This document shows, piece after piece, positions 8,821 to 28,544 of a stretch of DNA of 31,865 nucleotides. The notes beneath the pieces were generated by a model. That model was given only the letters and a program-made list of their open reading frames with translations, made no database searches and was not told where the DNA came from. Position 1 is the stretch's first letter; every line of letters begins with the position of its first letter. The position numbers were made by a program, and so were the translations under genes. Source of the DNA: a virus; IMG/VR virus record IMGVR_UViG_3300025601_000070, positions 1 through 31,865 of that record. One strand, given 5' to 3'.

Positions 8821-10278
8821 CTATTTCCACTCAATCTTTTCAACTTCAAACGGATAGTTCGCTTCTCTATAAAATGCTTTACGTTTAGTTAAATGTCGTT
8901 TGGCAAATTTGCATGTTGATGTTATGTCCCATATCTGAACAAAGTCTTTATCTTCTGCTTTACGTATACCTCGTCCTATACTTTGTATAACTCTAATAAA
9001 GCTCTTACCAGGCTCAACAAGCACAAGATTGAAAATACGAGGGATATTAATGCCCACAGCGGCAACACCATAAGTAGCAATAATAACTTTACTATCCATT
9101 CTAGCAATTTCGTCATACTCATCCTTTCGGTCCTTGGCTTTAGTAGCCCCTGATACAAACACTGCATCTGTAATTAGTTCAGTTAACATCTTGCCTGGAG
9201 CAATTCTATCTACTAAAACTAAAGTATTTCCACTTGCCCTAATCTTAGTAATCAGATCGGCCATATACTTCATACGGTCTTGTGTCTCTAAGAGATATCG
9301 AAGTTCGTCCTGATACGACGTGTATTCAGTATGATCGACTAACTGCACTACATTTACATGGCAGTTAGCCAACACACCCTCCTGCTGTAGTTCATTTGCT
9401 GATAGTTTACCTATTACGTCACCTATACTACATCGTAAACTCATACGCTCAGATGCTTCTTTAGGTATTGTTCCTGTTAATCCCCAACGGATAGGCACCT
9501 TAGACATTGCACCAGTTAACAAAGTTTTTAACGCATCTGCTTTAGCCATGTGTACTTCATCAACCATGACACAAACAACGTCCTGAAGAAATTCATCTAT
9601 TGTAATATCTACTTCGTGTGCTTTTGATCCTTTGAGCAGAATGTTTAGACTTTGCCAAGTACATATAGTGTGTGTCTTTCCAAATTCTTTACGGTCACCA
9701 AAGTAAACACCTACGTCTAGTCCCATGTTGATATAGTCTGCTTCAGTTTGTGTAACTAAACTTTTATTTGGAACAATAACAATAGTTCTACCATGCTGTT
9801 CGCAACAGTGACTTAGCACTGCCGTGATTAAAGTTTTGCCAGCACCTGTTGCTATTTCTTGTAAGCATTGAGGATTTGATAAAAACTTATTAATTATCTC
9901 AACTTGATAGTCTCTAAGCATTATCGGTTGTCCTGCTATTGGATGTGTTGGATCCCAGACTAAATGACTGTAGCTATCTTCTCTGACTTGAGTAAACTCA
10001 AACGTTCTTTCGTAGTCTCTGTAATCTTCAAGATCAACCTCATAGTTATATTGTTCAAGTACCGGTAATATCTCATCTAACAAGTTGATGTAGGTACTGC
10101 CTCCTAGCTGGAAGTAACCAACTTTTCCGTCCCATCTGCCTAATCTAACTGCGGGCATGTATCGTGCACCAGGAACTTCAAACTTGAACATGTCAACCAG
10201 CTTCTTGCGGACGTCGAGATCAAGTCCTTCAATCTTTACGTTGACTTCATCTTTAATATGTAATAAGGCTTGTTTCAT
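8821..10278 (-). CDS. uvsW: UvsW-type recombination helicase
   Basis: A 485-residue superfamily 2 helicase of the UvsW type, which in T4 processes recombination intermediates and R-loops and switches replication from origin to recombination mode. A short N-terminal domain (about 1-110) precedes the Q-like motif LRDYQ at 121-125, Walker A ATGAGKT at 143-149, DEVH at 240-243, TGT at 268-270 and the motif VI QSIGRGIRK at 432-440. The length matches T4 UvsW (about 500). The ATG overlaps the stop of the molybdopterin oxidoreductase as ATGA, so the two are probably translated from one mRNA. Confidence 0.93.
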   Translation of the reverse strand: MKQALLHIKDEVNVKIEGLDLDVRKKLVDMFKFEVPGARYMPAVRLGRWDGKVGYFQLGGSTYINLLDEILPVLEQYNYEVDLEDYRDYERTFEFTQVREDSYSHLVWDPTHPIAGQPIMLRDYQVEIINKFLSNPQCLQEIATGAGKTLITAVLSHCCEQHGRTIVIVPNKSLVTQTEADYINMGLDVGVYFGDRKEFGKTHTICTWQSLNILLKGSKAHEVDITIDEFLQDVVCVMVDEVHMAKADALKTLLTGAMSKVPIRWGLTGTIPKEASERMSLRCSIGDVIGKLSANELQQEGVLANCHVNVVQLVDHTEYTSYQDELRYLLETQDRMKYMADLITKIRASGNTLVLVDRIAPGKMLTELITDAVFVSGATKAKDRKDEYDEIARMDSKVIIATYGVAAVGINIPRIFNLVLVEPGKSFIRVIQSIGRGIRKAEDKDFVQIWDITSTCKFAKRHLTKRKAFYREANYPFEVEKIEWK

Positions 10279-12311
10279 TTAATATCCGCAAACACAAATT
10301 TATTTTGTGGGTTAAGGTAATCTACATTATCTGTAGAAGTTAGTTTGTTTATTATAGCATGATTTGTTATTCTTAGCAAACCCGATTGGAGATTAGTATC
10401 TACCAAACATTCTAGGTTAACCGCGCCTGCTCGAGTTAACAATGTTCTAATGTCCCCTGATTGAATGCGTAACTTGTTGGCATCCAACGAACTAATCTCC
10501 AATCTTGCTCGTTCGTTGTTTTTGATTAATTCATTCATTGATGTTTTCTGACGATATCCGCACTGTAAAACGTAAGGCCATTTATCATTTGTTAACTTAT
10601 TAGAATTTAATCTTGCCGACAATAACAGTTGCTTAGGAGCTAAATCAACTTTATGAGCTAACTTAACATCAAAATCAGACTGAACAAAGTGTTCTAGTGA
10701 CAACTTGTTGGTTAGATTAGTTGCTATGCTAACACTTTCTTCTAACGATAGTTCCCTCATGCCTGCAATAAAAAATTTCCATGCGGCTATGGGGACCAAT
10801 GGATGTGCTGAAGTGTTGGCAATTTTATACATTGTGTAATAAGCAACTGGGTCTTTCTTAACATAAAGATCATATAATTCTGTAAAGAATTGCAATTGAT
10901 TTTGATCCCACAGGTTACTAAAGTATTCAAGTTGTGTGTGATCTATTAGTTTCCGTCTTTCTAATATATTTTCAAAAATATCAATATTTAATCTTGCTTT
11001 AGTCTTATCAACAACCGGAAAACTTAATTGTGCTTTGTCACTTGTTGATGTAACTATCTCAGACTTTTCCAGGAAAGTAGGAGTAGGCAATACATAATCT
11101 GCTAACTTTGCTGTTTCGCTCATAAAACTATCAAGCACTACCACAAGACCAACTTGACTAATTTGTTCTTTAAATTTTTGTTGATTAGGATATCTAATAG
11201 CTGGATTCGAATTGTCAATGATTACTGTGTCAAATTTATCAATATTATCTGTTACGTAACTAGCATTTGTAATTCCGGCAAGTTGTTTTTGCTTGCCAAA
11301 CGGTACAGTTGGTTGTATAAAGTAATGATCACTAACCATGCCTGGCACTATAGAACCATCAGTGATCAACATGGTGCCGACTCGTTGAAAATTTCCTGTT
11401 ATTAGATATAGCAATGAGATTAGATAACTATTAGCCATCGGATATAATGAGTGGTCAATGCCATTTCCACTTAAAATACTAACACTGTTACTTTGATTAA
11501 TAATGGTAGCAAGTTCTGTAATATCTGCTACGGGTATCCCGCAGACATCTGAATATTCTAATAGATCTAACTGAGAAAAGTGTTTTTTAACTTTATCAAA
11601 ATTATCACAATGATCATTGACGAATTGTTGATCAATGTAATCATTATCAATAATAATTTTTATAATTGCTGATAGTAGCCAGGCGTCTGTTCCTGGCTTT
11701 AGTTGAAAATGTTTATCGGCACGCTTTGTTGTTTCTGTAATACAGGGATCAATTACTAGTAACTGCCTGTCAGGATCTTTCGTTAAAGAATTTATATTAG
11801 CTCTTACTCTAGGAGTGTGTTGTGTTACCCACGGATTCTGACCAATTACAATATGTGTCTGACTGTTTTCTGTGTCGGGCCTGGCCATATTACTAAACAT
11901 CAAACTAGGAACCAACACGGAGTAGGCCATCTCCATTGAATACACATTAGTAACATATTGTATACCTAAACGGTTAATCATTTCATATGCTAATAAACTG
12001 GCATATTCACTATCTGTTTTTGCCATATATATAGATCGATCAGGAGTAAGTCGACGACTAATATCGTTGAGTGCGTCTTCCCAACTAACGACTTCGAATC
12101 CAGAATCTGTTTTCCGTAACGGTTGAGTAATTCTATCCTCGTTGTATTGAAATTCTATCAGCTTCTGACTTTTTTCACAAATGTAACCTTTGCTTATTGG
12201 GTCATCAAAATTTGGCTTAATTTTAATAATCTGATCGTTAGAGTTAAGAGTTGCTTCAATCCCACATAGGGCTTGGCATAAATGACAAAAAGATTTACGA
12301 TTTTGACTCAT
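10275..12311 (-). CDS. Molybdopterin (bis-MGD) oxidoreductase, formate dehydrogenase/BisC-like
   Basis: An intact 678-residue protein, about the size of single-subunit enzymes such as FdhH (715). The N-terminus has the [4Fe-4S] ligand pattern C9-x2-C12-x3-C16-x28-C45. Family-typical elements follow: GYICEKS at 42-48, SWEDAL at 76-81, the cofactor loop IGQNPWVTQHTP at 156-167, and IDPCITETTKRADKHFQLKPGTD at about 187-209 (the D-P-x-x-T-E-T ... A-D ... P-G-T-D signature). The C-terminus matches the MGD-binding domain (LDANKLRIQSGD, then NKLTSTDNVDYLNP). The stretch that holds the Mo-ligating Cys/Sec in formate dehydrogenases aligns by eye with NVYSMEMAYS (122-131) and has no Cys, as in some uncharacterised BisC-like relatives. 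There is no Tat signal, so it is cytoplasmic. It sits between an AAA+ ATPase and UvsW, with its own strong promoter. The host would have to supply the cofactor. Substrate unknown. Confidence 0.88.
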   Translation of the reverse strand: MSQNRKSFCHLCQALCGIEATLNSNDQIIKIKPNFDDPISKGYICEKSQKLIEFQYNEDRITQPLRKTDSGFEVVSWEDALNDISRRLTPDRSIYMAKTDSEYASLLAYEMINRLGIQYVTNVYSMEMAYSVLVPSLMFSNMARPDTENSQTHIVIGQNPWVTQHTPRVRANINSLTKDPDRQLLVIDPCITETTKRADKHFQLKPGTDAWLLSAIIKIIIDNDYIDQQFVNDHCDNFDKVKKHFSQLDLLEYSDVCGIPVADITELATIINQSNSVSILSGNGIDHSLYPMANSYLISLLYLITGNFQRVGTMLITDGSIVPGMVSDHYFIQPTVPFGKQKQLAGITNASYVTDNIDKFDTVIIDNSNPAIRYPNQQKFKEQISQVGLVVVLDSFMSETAKLADYVLPTPTFLEKSEIVTSTSDKAQLSFPVVDKTKARLNIDIFENILERRKLIDHTQLEYFSNLWDQNQLQFFTELYDLYVKKDPVAYYTMYKIANTSAHPLVPIAAWKFFIAGMRELSLEESVSIATNLTNKLSLEHFVQSDFDVKLAHKVDLAPKQLLLSARLNSNKLTNDKWPYVLQCGYRQKTSMNELIKNNERARLEISSLDANKLRIQSGDIRTLLTRAGAVNLECLVDTNLQSGLLRITNHAIINKLTSTDNVDYLNPQNKFVFADIK

Positions 12312-12319
12312 ATGATAAT

Positions 12320-12348
12320 ATTATATAGTCAAGGGGAAAGGGTGTCAA
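12320..12348 (-). promoter_or_regulatory. Perfect-consensus sigma70 promoter for the molybdoenzyme gene
   Basis: The minus strand reads TTGACA (12343-12348), 17 bases, TATAAT (12320-12325), then eight bases to the ATG at 12311. The expected start is about two bases before the ATG, leaving no room for a ribosome-binding site. The -35 overlaps the hairpin at 12337-12363. Confidence 0.88.
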
Positions 12349-12363
12349 CCATCAACACCCTTT
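12337..12363. other. Inverted repeat overlapping the -35 box
   Basis: Nine-base arms AAAGGGTGT (12337-12345) and ACACCCTTT (12355-12363) flank a nine-base loop. It lies just after the stop of the AAA+ ATPase gene, but no T-run follows on either strand, so it is a poor intrinsic terminator. Because the left arm shares bases with the -35 element it could instead be an operator. Confidence 0.5.
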
Positions 12364-12383: not shown

Positions 12384-13196
12384 TTATCTTCGTTTCATGC
12401 AGGTTGCTCTTGCTAGTTCTTGCCAATTTGTATTAGATACTTTTCTAAGATCGGCAATCTTAAGTGCCATACGTAAACTAAGTTCATTTACCATCGTTGC
12501 ATTGTCTTGTAAAAAGTTTAACATTTCTTCTTGCTCGTAACCATTAAAATCATAGTCTTGAAATAGAGCACCAGTACCTGCAATCTGTTTGATACGTAAT
12601 AGTTTATCTCTTTCAGTATCAAGTGTAAGATCTAAGTAATGGCATCTAGATTGTATTGCTTCTAAGTGATCTTGTAGTTTTTTACTTTTAACATTTTCAA
12701 ACTTTAAGTTAGTAATAAAAATAGCTGACCCTTCAAAGTTAAACGTATCTGGTACACCTTCATTACGTAACTTGTATGAATCAGTGTTCCAACAAATCTT
12801 TCTTGTTTTCTTTGAATCTAACGCCGCCTTAAGAATGTTTAATGATAATTCATCTTGTAGTATTGAGTCACAATCATCAAACACTAGTACATTGTCTTTT
12901 TCTTTGTAGTTGAATAGTTTACAGTATAAACCAATGGCACTCATTGCACCCTTAACAACATCATATTGTTTAGGTCTTGATGCAACTTCTGTAAACATGC
13001 TTGCTTTCTCTAATTGTTTTTCAACACCATATGACTTACCAACCCCTGGAGGGCCCACAACGATCATTGCTCTTATATCACCGCAAATTGCGGCTTTAGT
13101 CATGTCATCTAATATAGTAAAACGTTTGCTAATACGCTCGATAATTTGCTCATCTGTTTCTTTTTTGAATTTTATAGTTTTAGCTACCATATTCAT
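12384..13196 (-). CDS. Phage AAA+ ATPase
   Basis: A 270-residue AAA+ protein with Walker A GPPGVGKS at 48-55 and Walker B VLVFDDCD at 103-110; IFITNLKF may be sensor 1. It is not the gp44 clamp-loader ATPase by sequence pattern; similar stand-alone AAA proteins occur in marine phages without known role. A sigma70-type promoter (13235-13263) gives a leader of about 30 bases. The GGGGG ribosome site (13199-13203) lies two bases from the ATG at 13196 but eight from the ATG at 13190, so the latter may be the true start. A hairpin at 12337-12363 follows the stop. Confidence 0.8.
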   Translation of the reverse strand: MNMVAKTIKFKKETDEQIIERISKRFTILDDMTKAAICGDIRAMIVVGPPGVGKSYGVEKQLEKASMFTEVASRPKQYDVVKGAMSAIGLYCKLFNYKEKDNVLVFDDCDSILQDELSLNILKAALDSKKTRKICWNTDSYKLRNEGVPDTFNFEGSAIFITNLKFENVKSKKLQDHLEAIQSRCHYLDLTLDTERDKLLRIKQIAGTGALFQDYDFNGYEQEEMLNFLQDNATMVNELSLRMALKIADLRKVSNTNWQELARATCMKRR

Positions 13197-22653: not shown

Positions 22654-23105
22654 TATAGTTGTATGTCTTCCATGCCACTTGCTCTCAATCTAACTACATG
22701 ACCTAACATAAAGTTTTTGCTTTCAAGACCTTTCATTATACCTAACCATTGGTTCCTAAGTAAAGCGATATCATTAATTAGTGTTTCATATTCAATGACT
22801 TCATCTTCTCCATCTACATATTTTTCAGCATCACGACTTGTTAATGCTCGTTGATATGCTTCTAGATATTTTTGAAAGTGCTTACGCCGAATCTTACGTA
22901 ATTGTATGTTTAAGAAATTTAATACTGCTTCTATTTCTTGTAGCTGATGGAAACGATGTTCAGTAATACCTGGCAAGTCTGCTATGTTACGTTCTACATA
23001 TCCATAGATACTAACATCTTTTTTAGCACCTAGTAATTCATTTCGATAGTGCATTAGGAAGTCTGGTAAGTTACTAATATTTTCAACTACCTTATTGTAC
23101 CACAT
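22653..23105 (-). CDS. uvsY: UvsY-like recombination mediator (candidate)
   Basis: A 150-residue, highly charged helical protein. The second half (DAEKYVDGEDEVIEYETLI, 92-110, then NQWLGIMKGLESKNFMLGHVVRLR, 118-141) follows the layout of the UvsY C-terminus, with an acidic turn, a long helix and a final Arg-rich helix. UvsY loads UvsX on gp32-coated ssDNA. Size is close to T4 UvsY (137). UvsX and gp32 lie upstream in the same operon, which supports the call. Sequence identity to T4 UvsY appears low. Confidence 0.6.
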   Translation of the reverse strand: MWYNKVVENISNLPDFLMHYRNELLGAKKDVSIYGYVERNIADLPGITEHRFHQLQEIEAVLNFLNIQLRKIRRKHFQKYLEAYQRALTSRDAEKYVDGEDEVIEYETLINDIALLRNQWLGIMKGLESKNFMLGHVVRLRASGMEDIQL

Positions 23106-24363
23106 CTCTATACTCCTCTAACCATGGAAATAATGTTTTCCAATCTGTTTTTCGTCGTCGGTCTATTTCATCTAAATATGTTATTAATTGTAACACCTTT
23201 CCTTTATCAAGTCTACTGTTTTTGACATTATTTGTTATAGCCGTGAAATGTTCTTTTGCACTCGGGCCATGCCAACTTTCTGTTTCCATAAGGTTTAAAA
23301 TAGTTTTAAAATCGTTGCTAAATTCATCTGCACCTAATATGTCGGGTGCCATGTAGTCTGGATAATATACCTGGGCAAAATAATGTTCTATCTTTCTATC
23401 CTGACTCCACTCTTTTAATTTCTTAAGTAAACCAGGTATTGTTTTAATTGTTAATACTGAGATGGCACCATTGAGATTTAATTTAATCCAGCGTTCACCT
23501 ATTAGGTATCTGAAGTTGTCTTCCCACTGCGTTAATTTAATGCCGTGTCTAGTAAACTCTTGCTGTGGTCCCCAACAATCAATTGAACAGTGCATGTCTA
23601 ATCGTCCTAGTTTCTTTTTTGCAATTAATTGTTTTATTCTACCAATATACTTTTCTAATTTAGATTTTTTAATCATTAAGTTTGAAACTATTTCAAGCTC
23701 TAAATCAGGACAGGGGTTATTTTCTAAAAACTCTAAGAATGTGTCAAATTGGGTTTGATAAAAGGGCTCACCACCTAATAGGTGTAATCTTTTTAACTTG
23801 TGTGCATTGTTTTCCATCCACTCCCAAAACTTTTCTTCAATATGACTAAAATTATCTGGATGTTTAAATTTACTTTCTAATACTAAATTATGTTTTTCAA
23901 ATTTTCCAAACTTTTTCATCTCAGAGTCTATGCCCGAACTTAGCTCAGGTCCACAATACACACATTTTAAATTGCAGGTATTGTCTAAATAAACTTCTAA
24001 TATAGTTGGATCTACGTGTGTTAGTGTAGAATCCTGATCAAGCTCTGGCGGATGTAGGTCCGGTAATGAGTTATAAAATTGTCGATCACTGCGTCCATTA
24101 TTTTTTTCAAACTTACCACAATATTCTTCACAGGTTGTCTCAGTTGGGCCGGGATCACCCGAAGGCCAATGGCCCTGTAACATTGTCTCTCTTTGCTCTA
24201 TCTTCTCAGCAGTATTATGAAAGTTAAATGTTTCTATATCAAATTTATGATCAATAACTCGATGACAGCTAGAAGTTACCCCTAAGTGTAGTGCTATTTT
24301 ACTAAATGACCATTTTGCCAGGCACGACGTGTCTGTTCTAATTGGAAAATACTTTTTTTCCAT
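23092..24363 (-). CDS. Radical SAM protein with N-terminal auxiliary cysteines (twitch/SPASM-like), 1 of 3
   Basis: A 423-residue protein. The radical SAM [4Fe-4S] motif is C130-x3-C134-x2-C137 in DNTCNLKCVYCGPE. Before it, C14, C33, C78 and C82 form an additional cysteine set: the start TSCLAKWSF with SSCHR and later CEEYC is typical of a phage subfamily whose auxiliary cluster region sits at the N-terminus. HLLGGEP (193-199) is the conserved GGEP motif. It directly follows the acidic 90-residue gene and overlaps UvsY by 14 bases. The target is unknown. Confidence 0.85.
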   Translation of the reverse strand: MEKKYFPIRTDTSCLAKWSFSKIALHLGVTSSCHRVIDHKFDIETFNFHNTAEKIEQRETMLQGHWPSGDPGPTETTCEEYCGKFEKNNGRSDRQFYNSLPDLHPPELDQDSTLTHVDPTILEVYLDNTCNLKCVYCGPELSSGIDSEMKKFGKFEKHNLVLESKFKHPDNFSHIEEKFWEWMENNAHKLKRLHLLGGEPFYQTQFDTFLEFLENNPCPDLELEIVSNLMIKKSKLEKYIGRIKQLIAKKKLGRLDMHCSIDCWGPQQEFTRHGIKLTQWEDNFRYLIGERWIKLNLNGAISVLTIKTIPGLLKKLKEWSQDRKIEHYFAQVYYPDYMAPDILGADEFSNDFKTILNLMETESWHGPSAKEHFTAITNNVKNSRLDKGKVLQLITYLDEIDRRRKTDWKTLFPWLEEYRDVVQ

Positions 24364-25763: not shown

Positions 25764-26786
25764 CTATTCTCCTAAATTTATATCTGTGTAGTAGTCTTTA
25801 TAACTAATTTTTCGTACTTGATCTTGCTTAGTTATAAACTCTACTAGTTCGTTTGTATTATTATAACTTGATGCAACCGAAGGTGCAAGTTGTTTGAGTA
25901 ACAATATGTCCGATTTCTCAAACTTTTTCCGTGCCTGTTCGGTAAACTCATTTTCGTACTTTATATTCATTTGTTCAGGGTATTCAAGTACTCCGTAACT
26001 AAAAGGAATTCCTACTTGGTCTGCGTACAATAACATATTTGCTAAGTCGTTGATAGTATAAACGTTTAGCGTACTCCAAAAGCCGAGTTCTAAATTTTTA
26101 TGTTTGTCTGCTAAGTGTTTATACTTTCTAACAACCTGGTCCCATTTCCCCCACTTAATCGGAAAACGAGCATACTCGTGTACTTGTTTAGTGCCATCAA
26201 AACTCAATGTTACTATAACTTTTATCTTACGTTCTAGTAGTTGTTCTATCTGTTTAATTACTGTTGTGCCGTTGGTATTAATTCTAACTATCTTAACATT
26301 TTGTGGTAAATTGTCTAACAGTCGAGCATAGTTCTTACTATAGCTAGGTTCTCCACCGTTAATATCTAATTCAACAATACGATCTTTAGGCAGCCGGTCA
26401 AATGCTGTTACATTTTCTAACTTAATAACGTTCTTTTCTAAACTTCCGATAGTTGTTGACAGTCCGGCATAGCAAAACTGGCATGCTGAGTTGCATACGT
26501 TGTCTAAGACGCCACCTATAATGAGATAATCATCTTTAAATGTCTTTAACAACTTGTCTCTACGTATGCTATCGATTCGAATACTGGAGCCTGATGCCAG
26601 CTCGGTTGTTTGACAACGCCGGCATTCTGTAGGCCAGTCTTCATTTTCTTTTATCTCTTTTGCCCAGTCACTGCTTTCCATTTCTTCGTAAGAAGTAAAC
26701 CTAGGAGCATTGACCATATGGCCGCAACGACTAACTGTACTATCTTCATTTAATCGAGCAAAGTGATCAAGGCGTGGGCAAAACAT
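25764..26786 (-). CDS. Radical SAM protein with N-terminal auxiliary cysteines, 2 of 3
   Basis: A 340-residue protein. The radical SAM motif is C98-x3-C102-x2-C105 (VCNSACQFCYAG), with the DINGGEPSYS motif after it. N-terminal cysteines C3, C21, C55 and C58 (FCPRL, RCGH, ECRRC) form a SPASM/twitch-like set placed before the barrel. It overlaps the sulfotransferase-like gene upstream by 20 bases and abuts uvsX downstream. Confidence 0.87.
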   Translation of the reverse strand: MFCPRLDHFARLNEDSTVSRCGHMVNAPRFTSYEEMESSDWAKEIKENEDWPTECRRCQTTELASGSSIRIDSIRRDKLLKTFKDDYLIIGGVLDNVCNSACQFCYAGLSTTIGSLEKNVIKLENVTAFDRLPKDRIVELDINGGEPSYSKNYARLLDNLPQNVKIVRINTNGTTVIKQIEQLLERKIKVIVTLSFDGTKQVHEYARFPIKWGKWDQVVRKYKHLADKHKNLELGFWSTLNVYTINDLANMLLYADQVGIPFSYGVLEYPEQMNIKYENEFTEQARKKFEKSDILLLKQLAPSVASSYNNTNELVEFITKQDQVRKISYKDYYTDINLGE

Positions 26787-27405
26787 GTGTTACCTCCGCT
26801 AGTTTTTGTGATTTACCAATGACTGTAGCATACGCCAATGGGGCTTGTGTCAGTAGATGTGTCATTATTTGATTAGGTGACCAGCTCTGCCCAGTTAAGT
26901 CGTTAACTAGCAAATTATCTAATATCATATACATCTCTAAATTCGGGCTCGTTGGGGATTCTACATTTGATTTTTTAGGTATAGCTACACGTCCAGACGT
27001 ATAGTAACTTAACATCTGTATATTATGTATATGTATCTTAGCATCTGGGGACATATACCTCATAAGATTAATTAACCAACAAAATTGAGGGAGTATATGG
27101 CGATCAAAGATATAACCTTGTTCTCCTAAGTACAAAAGAGTCTGATAATCTAATTTAGGATTTTCGTAAATATATGTCTGAAATCCGCTACGATATCTTT
27201 CTTCTGGATCACGTAAAAATACATCTATATCAGTAAGTTTCTTAATCTGCTCATTGAAAATTAATTTATAATTGTTTTCTTTCTGAATGTTATATATTGA
27301 AGAACTTCCGTTCTTAAATATTGGATATATGTATTTGTTCTGATTAGGAAAGTATACAATTTCTACTTTATTCGGAAATAGTATATCATCTAACTTTGTA
27401 AACAT
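26767..27405 (-). CDS. Sulfotransferase-like protein
   Basis: A 212-residue protein. FKNGSSSI (30-37) matches the 5'-phosphosulfate loop (PKxGSTS) of PAPS-dependent sulfotransferases, and VFLRDPEERYRSGF (62-75) matches the 3'-phosphate-binding RDPxxRxxSG motif; spacing is as in the Sulfotransfer_2 family. Somewhat short for the family. It sits between two radical SAM genes, overlapping both, which suggests a common product or target. PAPS would have to come from the host. Confidence 0.65.
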   Translation of the reverse strand: MFTKLDDILFPNKVEIVYFPNQNKYIYPIFKNGSSSIYNIQKENNYKLIFNEQIKKLTDIDVFLRDPEERYRSGFQTYIYENPKLDYQTLLYLGEQGYIFDRHILPQFCWLINLMRYMSPDAKIHIHNIQMLSYYTSGRVAIPKKSNVESPTSPNLEMYMILDNLLVNDLTGQSWSPNQIMTHLLTQAPLAYATVIGKSQKLAEVTHVLPTP

Positions 27406-28544
27406 TTATACATCTCCGGAAATATTTTTGTACTATCTATCCCTCTGCGTGTGTCTAATTTAGACAACTTATTTTTTAATGTTCTTGGATCTTTAATCAT
27501 TGGTTGTGTTAGGTGTGTTAACATATTACGATAACTATCTTCTATTAAGAAACCTGGTTCTTTTTTAATTCTATTGTTAAGCTCTATCATTAATTCATCT
27601 ATTATATTGTCTGGTAAATGTCTAACGTCCTGCCAGGTAGGTAGAGTTAATGGACCTACTATAAAACTGTTATTATGGTAACCTAGCCCTTTAAGGTAAT
27701 CAACAGTGTCAAATATAGATCTAAAATTCATAGCATACCATAACATATTAAAACTTACCTTGTGTCCTTTATCTGTTATACGTAATAAGTTTTCATTGAA
27801 GTCTTCCCATACACCACCATATCTAATGTATTCAAACTGATCTTCTATAGTATCTAAACTAACTGTCCAGTGTACATTTTTAAACTCCATAATTTTGTCA
27901 AATACCTTTGTACCTGTTTTACTTAGATTAGTGTTCACTCTTATGTTTACATCAGGATTCTTTTCTTGGAGTATTTCTAATAACTCTAAATTCTCTTTCA
28001 TTAATAACGGCTCCCCACCTGCTAGATAGACATGTTTAAGTTGGTGGGCATTATCAAATACTAATTGTTTAAGTTCTTCTACACGTTCAGGTGTAGGCTC
28101 TTGAACTTGTATTTTTAATTCAGTTGCCCATTTACTAGAGTATTCAGGACCGCAATATACACAAGCATGATTACATACGTTTGACCAACGTATATCTATC
28201 TTGTGTAACTTAAAATTGTCAACTTGATCATATAATGTATTGTCTACAGTTTTTAATTCTTTAAGATAAAAGATACGATCACTAATCATGTCATACCCTT
28301 TCTTTTCTCCTTCGAGATCATAACATACATTACACCCTATACCCCCTTTGTGATCAAGCATGTTCTGTTTAGTTGTTGTGTTCTCTTTCAATATATCGTG
28401 TATCGAATTATCTTTTAAATTGCCAATAGGTCGTTGACTACGTATACAGTTTAATACATCACCGTTTGAATTATACATAAAGCCTGTCCAGGGTATAGGA
28501 CAAAACTTTTTGTTGGTTAAATATTCTTTAGCTTTCAAACCCAT
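27390..28544 (-). CDS. Radical SAM protein with N-terminal auxiliary cysteines, 3 of 3
   Basis: A 384-residue protein. The radical SAM motif is C124-x3-C128-x2-C131 (VCNHACVYCGPE), and YLAGGEPLLM carries the GGEP motif. C15, C33, C71 and C74 (FCPIPW, NCIRS, CNVC) form the same N-terminal auxiliary set as in copy 2; FCPxPW plus G-D-V-x-x-C is the SPASM-like signature. It overlaps the SDR gene upstream by 17 bases and the sulfotransferase-like gene by 16. Confidence 0.88.
   Translation of the reverse strand: MGLKAKEYLTNKKFCPIPWTGFMYNSNGDVLNCIRSQRPIGNLKDNSIHDILKENTTTKQNMLDHKGGIGCNVCYDLEGEKKGYDMISDRIFYLKELKTVDNTLYDQVDNFKLHKIDIRWSNVCNHACVYCGPEYSSKWATELKIQVQEPTPERVEELKQLVFDNAHQLKHVYLAGGEPLLMKENLELLEILQEKNPDVNIRVNTNLSKTGTKVFDKIMEFKNVHWTVSLDTIEDQFEYIRYGGVWEDFNENLLRITDKGHKVSFNMLWYAMNFRSIFDTVDYLKGLGYHNNSFIVGPLTLPTWQDVRHLPDNIIDELMIELNNRIKKEPGFLIEDSYRNMLTHLTQPMIKDPRTLKNKLSKLDTRRGIDSTKIFPEMYKCLQS

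Follow-up and report, generated by a model that had tools for sequence, protein, structure and literature searches.

The 31,865-base IMG/VR record analysed here as the window raises the question of what a gene for a large molybdopterin oxidoreductase is doing among the replication genes of a phage, and whether its product works there as an enzyme. A first-pass annotation had described a complete 678-residue bis-MGD gene with [4Fe-4S] ligands, a DPxxTET/PGTD signature and an MGD-binding C-terminus, lying between an AAA+ ATPase gene and uvsW with an ATGA overlap, and had left the strand unnamed. Both gene and setting hold up: the reading frame is intact and lies on the minus strand, the motifs are all present in our alignments, and the coordinates and Pfam assignments agree with the proposed neighbours (Table 1). 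Pfam analysis of the protein identified the Molybdopterin (2.7e-25), Fe4S4 (2.6e-8) and Molydop_binding (1.5e-6) domains, and since all three exceed their gathering cut-offs, the reading frame is far from a chance one. The domains follow each other as PF04879, PF00384 and PF01568, the architecture of the DMSO-reductase/MopB superfamily, and the N-terminal [4Fe-4S] ligands carried by most members of this superfamily are found in all ten full-length phage proteins. Among the cellular rows of the alignment, C9 is conserved in each of the 77 rows that have a residue at this position, and C12, C16 and C45 in 80 of 80. The window protein also has the C-terminal MGD domain. Its first cysteine is already at residue 9, which leaves no room for a signal peptide. 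Codon usage and GC3 of the gene match those of the neighbouring genes.

Table 1. Features of the molybdoenzyme locus in the window
Feature	Position	Strand	Basis or remark
uvsW helicase gene, downstream, coupled	8821..10278	-	Pfam UvsW_N, ResIII, Helicase_C
Molybdopterin (bis-MGD) oxidoreductase gene	10275..12311	-	678 aa; ATG start at 12311, TGA ending at 10275
ATGA overlap, molybdoenzyme stop and uvsW start codon	10275..10278	-	Sequence
C-terminal domain motif LQCGYRQKTSMN, residues 582-593	10533..10568	-	Sequence alignments
Phage-specific loop GNGIDH, residues 282-287	11451..11468	-	DLGVQM in cellular family
DPxxTET...KPGTD MGD-binding stretch, residues 188-209	11685..11750	-	Alignments; DPCITET in window protein
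Glu127 codon, aligned with Mo-ligating Cys/SeCys of formate dehydrogenases	11931..11933	-	MAFFT and HMMER profile
K47 codon, Cys-x-Lys relay residue	12171-12173	-	Beside [4Fe-4S] ligand codons
[4Fe-4S] ligand codons C9, C12, C16, C45	12177..12287	-	Invariant in 10/10 phage rows
Sigma70-type promoter TTGACA-N17-TATAAT	12320..12348	-	12/12 consensus; -10 ends 8 nt before ATG
Inverted repeat AAAGGGTGT-9 nt-ACACCCTTT after AAA+ gene	12337..12363	-	Overlaps -35 box
AAA+ ATPase gene, upstream flank of hotspot	12384..13196	-	PHROG 1250, E 3.5e-84; weak AAA_16

The window also encodes a DnaB-like helicase, a Toprim primase and a RecA/UvsX-like protein, in keeping with the phage replication block that had been recognised at the outset; the block is of T4-like type. 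A consensus sigma70-type promoter precedes the molybdoenzyme gene and, because its -10 box ends just ahead of the ATG, a leaderless mRNA is predicted. The same promoter layout stands before uvsW in 12 relatives that do not have the gene (L002, L003, L082-L087, L095, L097, L103 and L105), with 10-12 of 12 consensus positions and 6-8 nt to the start codon; for these T4-like relatives, too, a leaderless mRNA is predicted at uvsW. The arrangement in the window predicts a leaderless transcript, made by the host sigma70 machinery, that starts at the molybdoenzyme and runs into uvsW by coupling. Sequence comparison revealed that the inverted repeat is common to relatives without the molybdoenzyme. 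In the contigs nearest to the window, whose AAA+ is 99% identical, the gene is absent and an exact empty site is found: the start codon directly behind this inverted repeat and promoter is that of uvsW, standing exactly where the molybdoenzyme ATG stands in the window. This implies that the gene was gained in the window phage or lost in its relatives, cleanly between promoter and uvsW.

The interval between the AAA+ gene and uvsW is an insertion hotspot, which is either empty or occupied by radical-SAM-like genes, a hydroxylase, formate--tetrahydrofolate ligase (FTHFS) or the molybdoenzyme (e.g. L022, L045, L076). Two tRNA-like sequences were seen by eye in this interval at L085:973-1236, and an aspartyl/asparaginyl beta-hydroxylase-like gene lies between molybdoenzyme and uvsW at L160:9093-9935 and in six more loci (Pfam E 9e-9). 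The usual neighbour of the molybdoenzyme is a 330-420 aa protein encoded before uvsW, here termed X375 (L160:5855-6970; about 50 loci). It was considered as a redox partner and rejected, being present without the molybdoenzyme in dozens of loci and having a helicase-like fold; the weak likeness to XPB-type helicases in a fold search (best E 2e-6, TM 0.25) makes it a possible UvsW partner. Elsewhere in the window, three radical-SAM proteins are encoded at 23092-24363, 25764-26786 and 27390-28544; one has a SPASM match, and the first scores just under the Pfam cut-off.

A viral scan with the window protein as a single sequence found no relative, and the BFVD viral fold library gave no match at E <= 0.001. 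The first other carrier was reached through relatives of uvsW; its homologue, at the same place, is 38% identical. Profile scans then identified 17 IMG/VR contigs besides the window with homologues of 35-47% identity, from about nine lineages. In all 17 the gene precedes uvsW, either immediately or at a distance of one to three genes, and the same locus is occupied in other phages. One carrier contig is 114 kb long and contains Gp23, a T4-type terminase and tail genes; together with the syntenic carriers it places the gene in bona fide phage genomes, as expected of a phage auxiliary metabolic gene. The rarity claimed for such genes in phages is borne out, in that 11 other large relative records, which may be fragments, do not contain the molybdoenzyme. 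One copy, at L159:2286-4373, is split into two reading frames (500 and 178 aa), and the near-identical copy in L158 is intact; the split may be a frameshift, a stop or a sequencing error. No GenBank phage match covers 80% of the window protein, and the one match inspected was a bacterial nitrate/Moco gene cluster. A scan of genomes with the phage profile returned no match; a final viral scan yielded no new contig of the phage clade, and two of the contigs that it added proved on inspection to belong to another family with an S-T/V-D-Q motif. No conserved partner gene accompanies the molybdoenzyme in the phage loci. Searches of the carriers by tblastn did not find MobA, MoaC, MoaE or MoeA, and for MoaA gave only weak matches of the radical-SAM kind; the Pfam listing of the 114-kb contig used in this search comprised 25 of 67 families. 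Cofactor or partner genes may lie elsewhere in the genome, because IMG/VR contigs are fragments.

Structure prediction, proposed earlier as a check, gave a high-confidence AlphaFold model (pLDDT 90.8, pTM 0.91) with the full Fdh/Nap fold. Foldseek comparison with the PDB (best E 4e-38) returned a formate dehydrogenase as top match. The leading hits among solved structures consist of formate dehydrogenases, periplasmic nitrate reductases and acetylene hydratase, so that the nearest solved folds are all catalytic bis-MGD enzymes. Sequence motifs and model suggest that the phage protein binds a Mo or W bis-MGD cofactor. The Mo-ligating Cys/SeCys of formate dehydrogenases, the His that follows it and the RGQNNVQG motif with its Arg are absent from all ten full-length phage proteins and from 80 cellular members. 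At the ligand position, both MAFFT and a 57-row HMMER profile, compared with PDB chains 7qv7 and 9t1s, place Glu127, a residue shared by all 10 phage and all 80 cellular rows. Posterior values at Glu127 are middling, giving a register of moderate certainty, and a single-sequence phmmer alignment puts Ala129 there instead. The AlphaFold model has a long helix beginning at residue 129, which in our judgement is easier to reconcile with residue 127 as the ligand than with residue 129. Glu127 is a likely metal ligand on these alignments, not a certain one, given the middling posteriors and the preference of the single-sequence alignment for Ala129.

A scan of GTDB genomes found at least 80 cellular relatives of 25-33% identity in many phyla. 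In a tree of 95 rows, the exact root of which is uncertain owing to long branches, all ten full-length phage proteins group in a single clade (SH-aLRT 100) on a stem branch of 2.98, and their sister is an uncharacterised bacterial family, widespread in Myxococcota, Pseudomonadota, Acidobacteriota and Actinomycetota, in which no conserved operon partner was found. By this tree and the locus comparison, the phage proteins are an old, phage-only branch at a fixed spot in about nine phage lineages. The phage gene is, as judged from its codons, under purifying selection; dN/dS between phage pairs is 0.09-0.24, with several dS values saturated. Like the bacterial family, the phage proteins have Glu followed by Lys at the ligand position, the Glu being present in 10 of 10 and the next residue being Lys in seven, Arg in two and Met in the window protein. 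The motifs AQEKTGE, GERR and TPWHK of the cellular family are replaced in phages by S-x-E-K/R/M-x-Y/H, G-Y/I/F-R-Q and NPQ-Y/N-K, which makes the phage proteins a sister clade and not members of the cellular E-motif family. Of the positions that the cellular family conserves, the phages retain 53, including all cluster and MGD residues; ten are switched and 69 are relaxed, and the loops 96-103, 124-133 and 282-287 are rewritten. Since these loops near the metal site differ from those of the bacterial family, the comparison suggests that the phage clade acts on a different substrate.

We consider the product to be probably a stand-alone, cytoplasmic Mo- or W-bis-MGD oxidoreductase of a phage-specific clade, serving as an auxiliary metabolic enzyme. 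This reading builds on the intact gene, the cofactor motifs, the predicted fold, the signature of selection, the fixed locus and the promoter and overlap layout. The protein would be made early from the uvsW promoter together with uvsW, and would fold around one [4Fe-4S] cluster and a bis-MGD supplied by the host, no cofactor genes having been seen in the phage. Glu127 would hold the metal in place of Cys/SeCys, electrons would be exchanged with a soluble host carrier through the cluster, and a small molecule would be converted, though not formate by the known mechanism. The use would be metabolic support of infection, with the gene gained and lost at the hotspot between the AAA+ gene and uvsW. 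A narrower version, in which a phage-only Mo/W clade with its metal on glutamate performs during infection a reaction of its own, unlike that of the bacterial sister family, is considered rather unlikely.

The first-pass annotation had allowed that the fold might be used for something else, and in one form this proposal survives as an unlikely alternative: a non-catalytic descendant, similar in kind to NuoG or QrcB, that keeps the cluster and perhaps MGD and acts as a scaffold, an electron relay or a binder of host cofactor. The gene sits within a replication operon, the stem branch is very long and several of the relaxed positions are near the metal site, a pattern that could alternatively reflect loss of catalysis. 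However, the cluster ligands, K47, E127 and the MGD contacts are all invariant despite strong divergence, the gene is under purifying selection, and the protein scores far below the curated NuoG and QrcB models (74.6 against 470 and 100.5 against 440 bits, respectively).

Unlikely, too, is that the protein catalyses the same reaction as its cellular sister family and is an ordinary host-derived auxiliary gene. The sister relationship in the tree and the retention of 53 family-conserved positions, the invariant Glu among them, fit this explanation, but the ten switched positions and three rewritten loops do not, and none of the sampled bacterial lineages nests with the phage clade or represents a near donor.

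That the protein is a formate dehydrogenase or CO2 reductase, supplying the one-carbon pool of nucleotide synthesis or withdrawing from it beside a phage FTHFS, appears quite improbable. The best-scoring curated model is that of the formate dehydrogenase alpha subunit (TIGR01591), and the top fold match is a formate dehydrogenase, yet the protein reaches only 212 bits where the model's cut-off is 666. No phage row has the RGQNNVQG motif with its catalytic Arg, and the stretch that should contain Cys/SeCys and His has no Cys, E127 being followed by K, R or M; the sister family does not have these residues either. On this evidence the active site differs from that of formate dehydrogenases, and the formate-like reaction first envisaged is not sustained. 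A phage FTHFS of about 539 aa occurs at 27 IMG/VR loci, most of them flanked by the AAA+ gene on one side and X375 or uvsW on the other, and thus shares the hotspot in many related phages; it lies two genes upstream of the molybdoenzyme in L161 (206-1825, Pfam E 8e-233) and L175 (2197-3807). These are, however, the only two of the 27 loci that carry both genes, and the window has no FTHFS, so FTHFS was rejected as an obligate partner and the co-location is suggestive only. No paper on phage-encoded FTHFS was found among the journal papers searched, mostly open-access ones.

Finally, an assembly chimaera or bacterial contamination, to which the lack of the gene in the closest phage relatives might point, can be dismissed, and the refuting conditions named in the first-pass annotation do not hold: 17 other contigs carry the same gene at this locus, among them the 114-kb one with Gp23, terminase and tail genes, the relatives have an exact empty site and the codon use is phage-like; this is a real, selected phage gene.

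The protein was compared with the closest known systems. The bacterial 'molybdopterin-dependent oxidoreductase' family (L178-L257; Acinetobacter 'fdhF' in L165), for which no function was found, has its own motifs, A-Q-E-K-T-G, GERR...N and a TPWHKxVPxR C-terminus. The phage proteins share with this sister group the domains, cluster ligands, invariant Glu and stand-alone gene, and differ in their low identity, in having neither GERR nor TPWHK and in the loops next to the metal site. The fold, the [4Fe-4S] cluster with bis-MGD and the MGD motifs are those of formate dehydrogenase alpha and FdhF (PDB 7qv7, 7vw6, 1fdi, 9t1s), which differ in the active-site residues and score described above. NarG, perchlorate reductase and ethylbenzene dehydrogenase are Asp-ligated molybdoenzymes. 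As in these, a carboxylate is expected at the metal of the phage protein if the alignment register is right, but the residue would be a Glu and not an Asp, partner subunits with FeS or haem were not found, and the sequence match is only distant. Molybdoenzyme genes in phage contigs are represented earlier by PHROG 7800, annotated DmsA. A paper on pelagimyophages mentions 'a formate dehydrogenase' for a group from deep water (PMC7029224) and one on Microcystis viruses includes a 'molybdopterin oxidoreductase' among viral genes (PMC12542629), so the enzyme class has already been mentioned in viruses; the passages of these papers that mention it do not analyse active site, clade or locus. In the mostly open-access journal papers searched, we found no description of the phage clade, its fixed locus or the Glu motif, nor of a glutamate metal ligand in the superfamily.

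A large Mo/FeS enzyme is a costly product that relies on the host for its cofactors. That a separate clade is maintained under selection at a fixed place implies that its reaction matters to infection, and would link phage fitness to the molybdenum and Fe-S metabolism of the host. The gene provides a marker to seek in metatranscriptomes. Should Glu indeed bind the metal, the site would be one new to characterisation, shared by phages and their widespread bacterial sister family.
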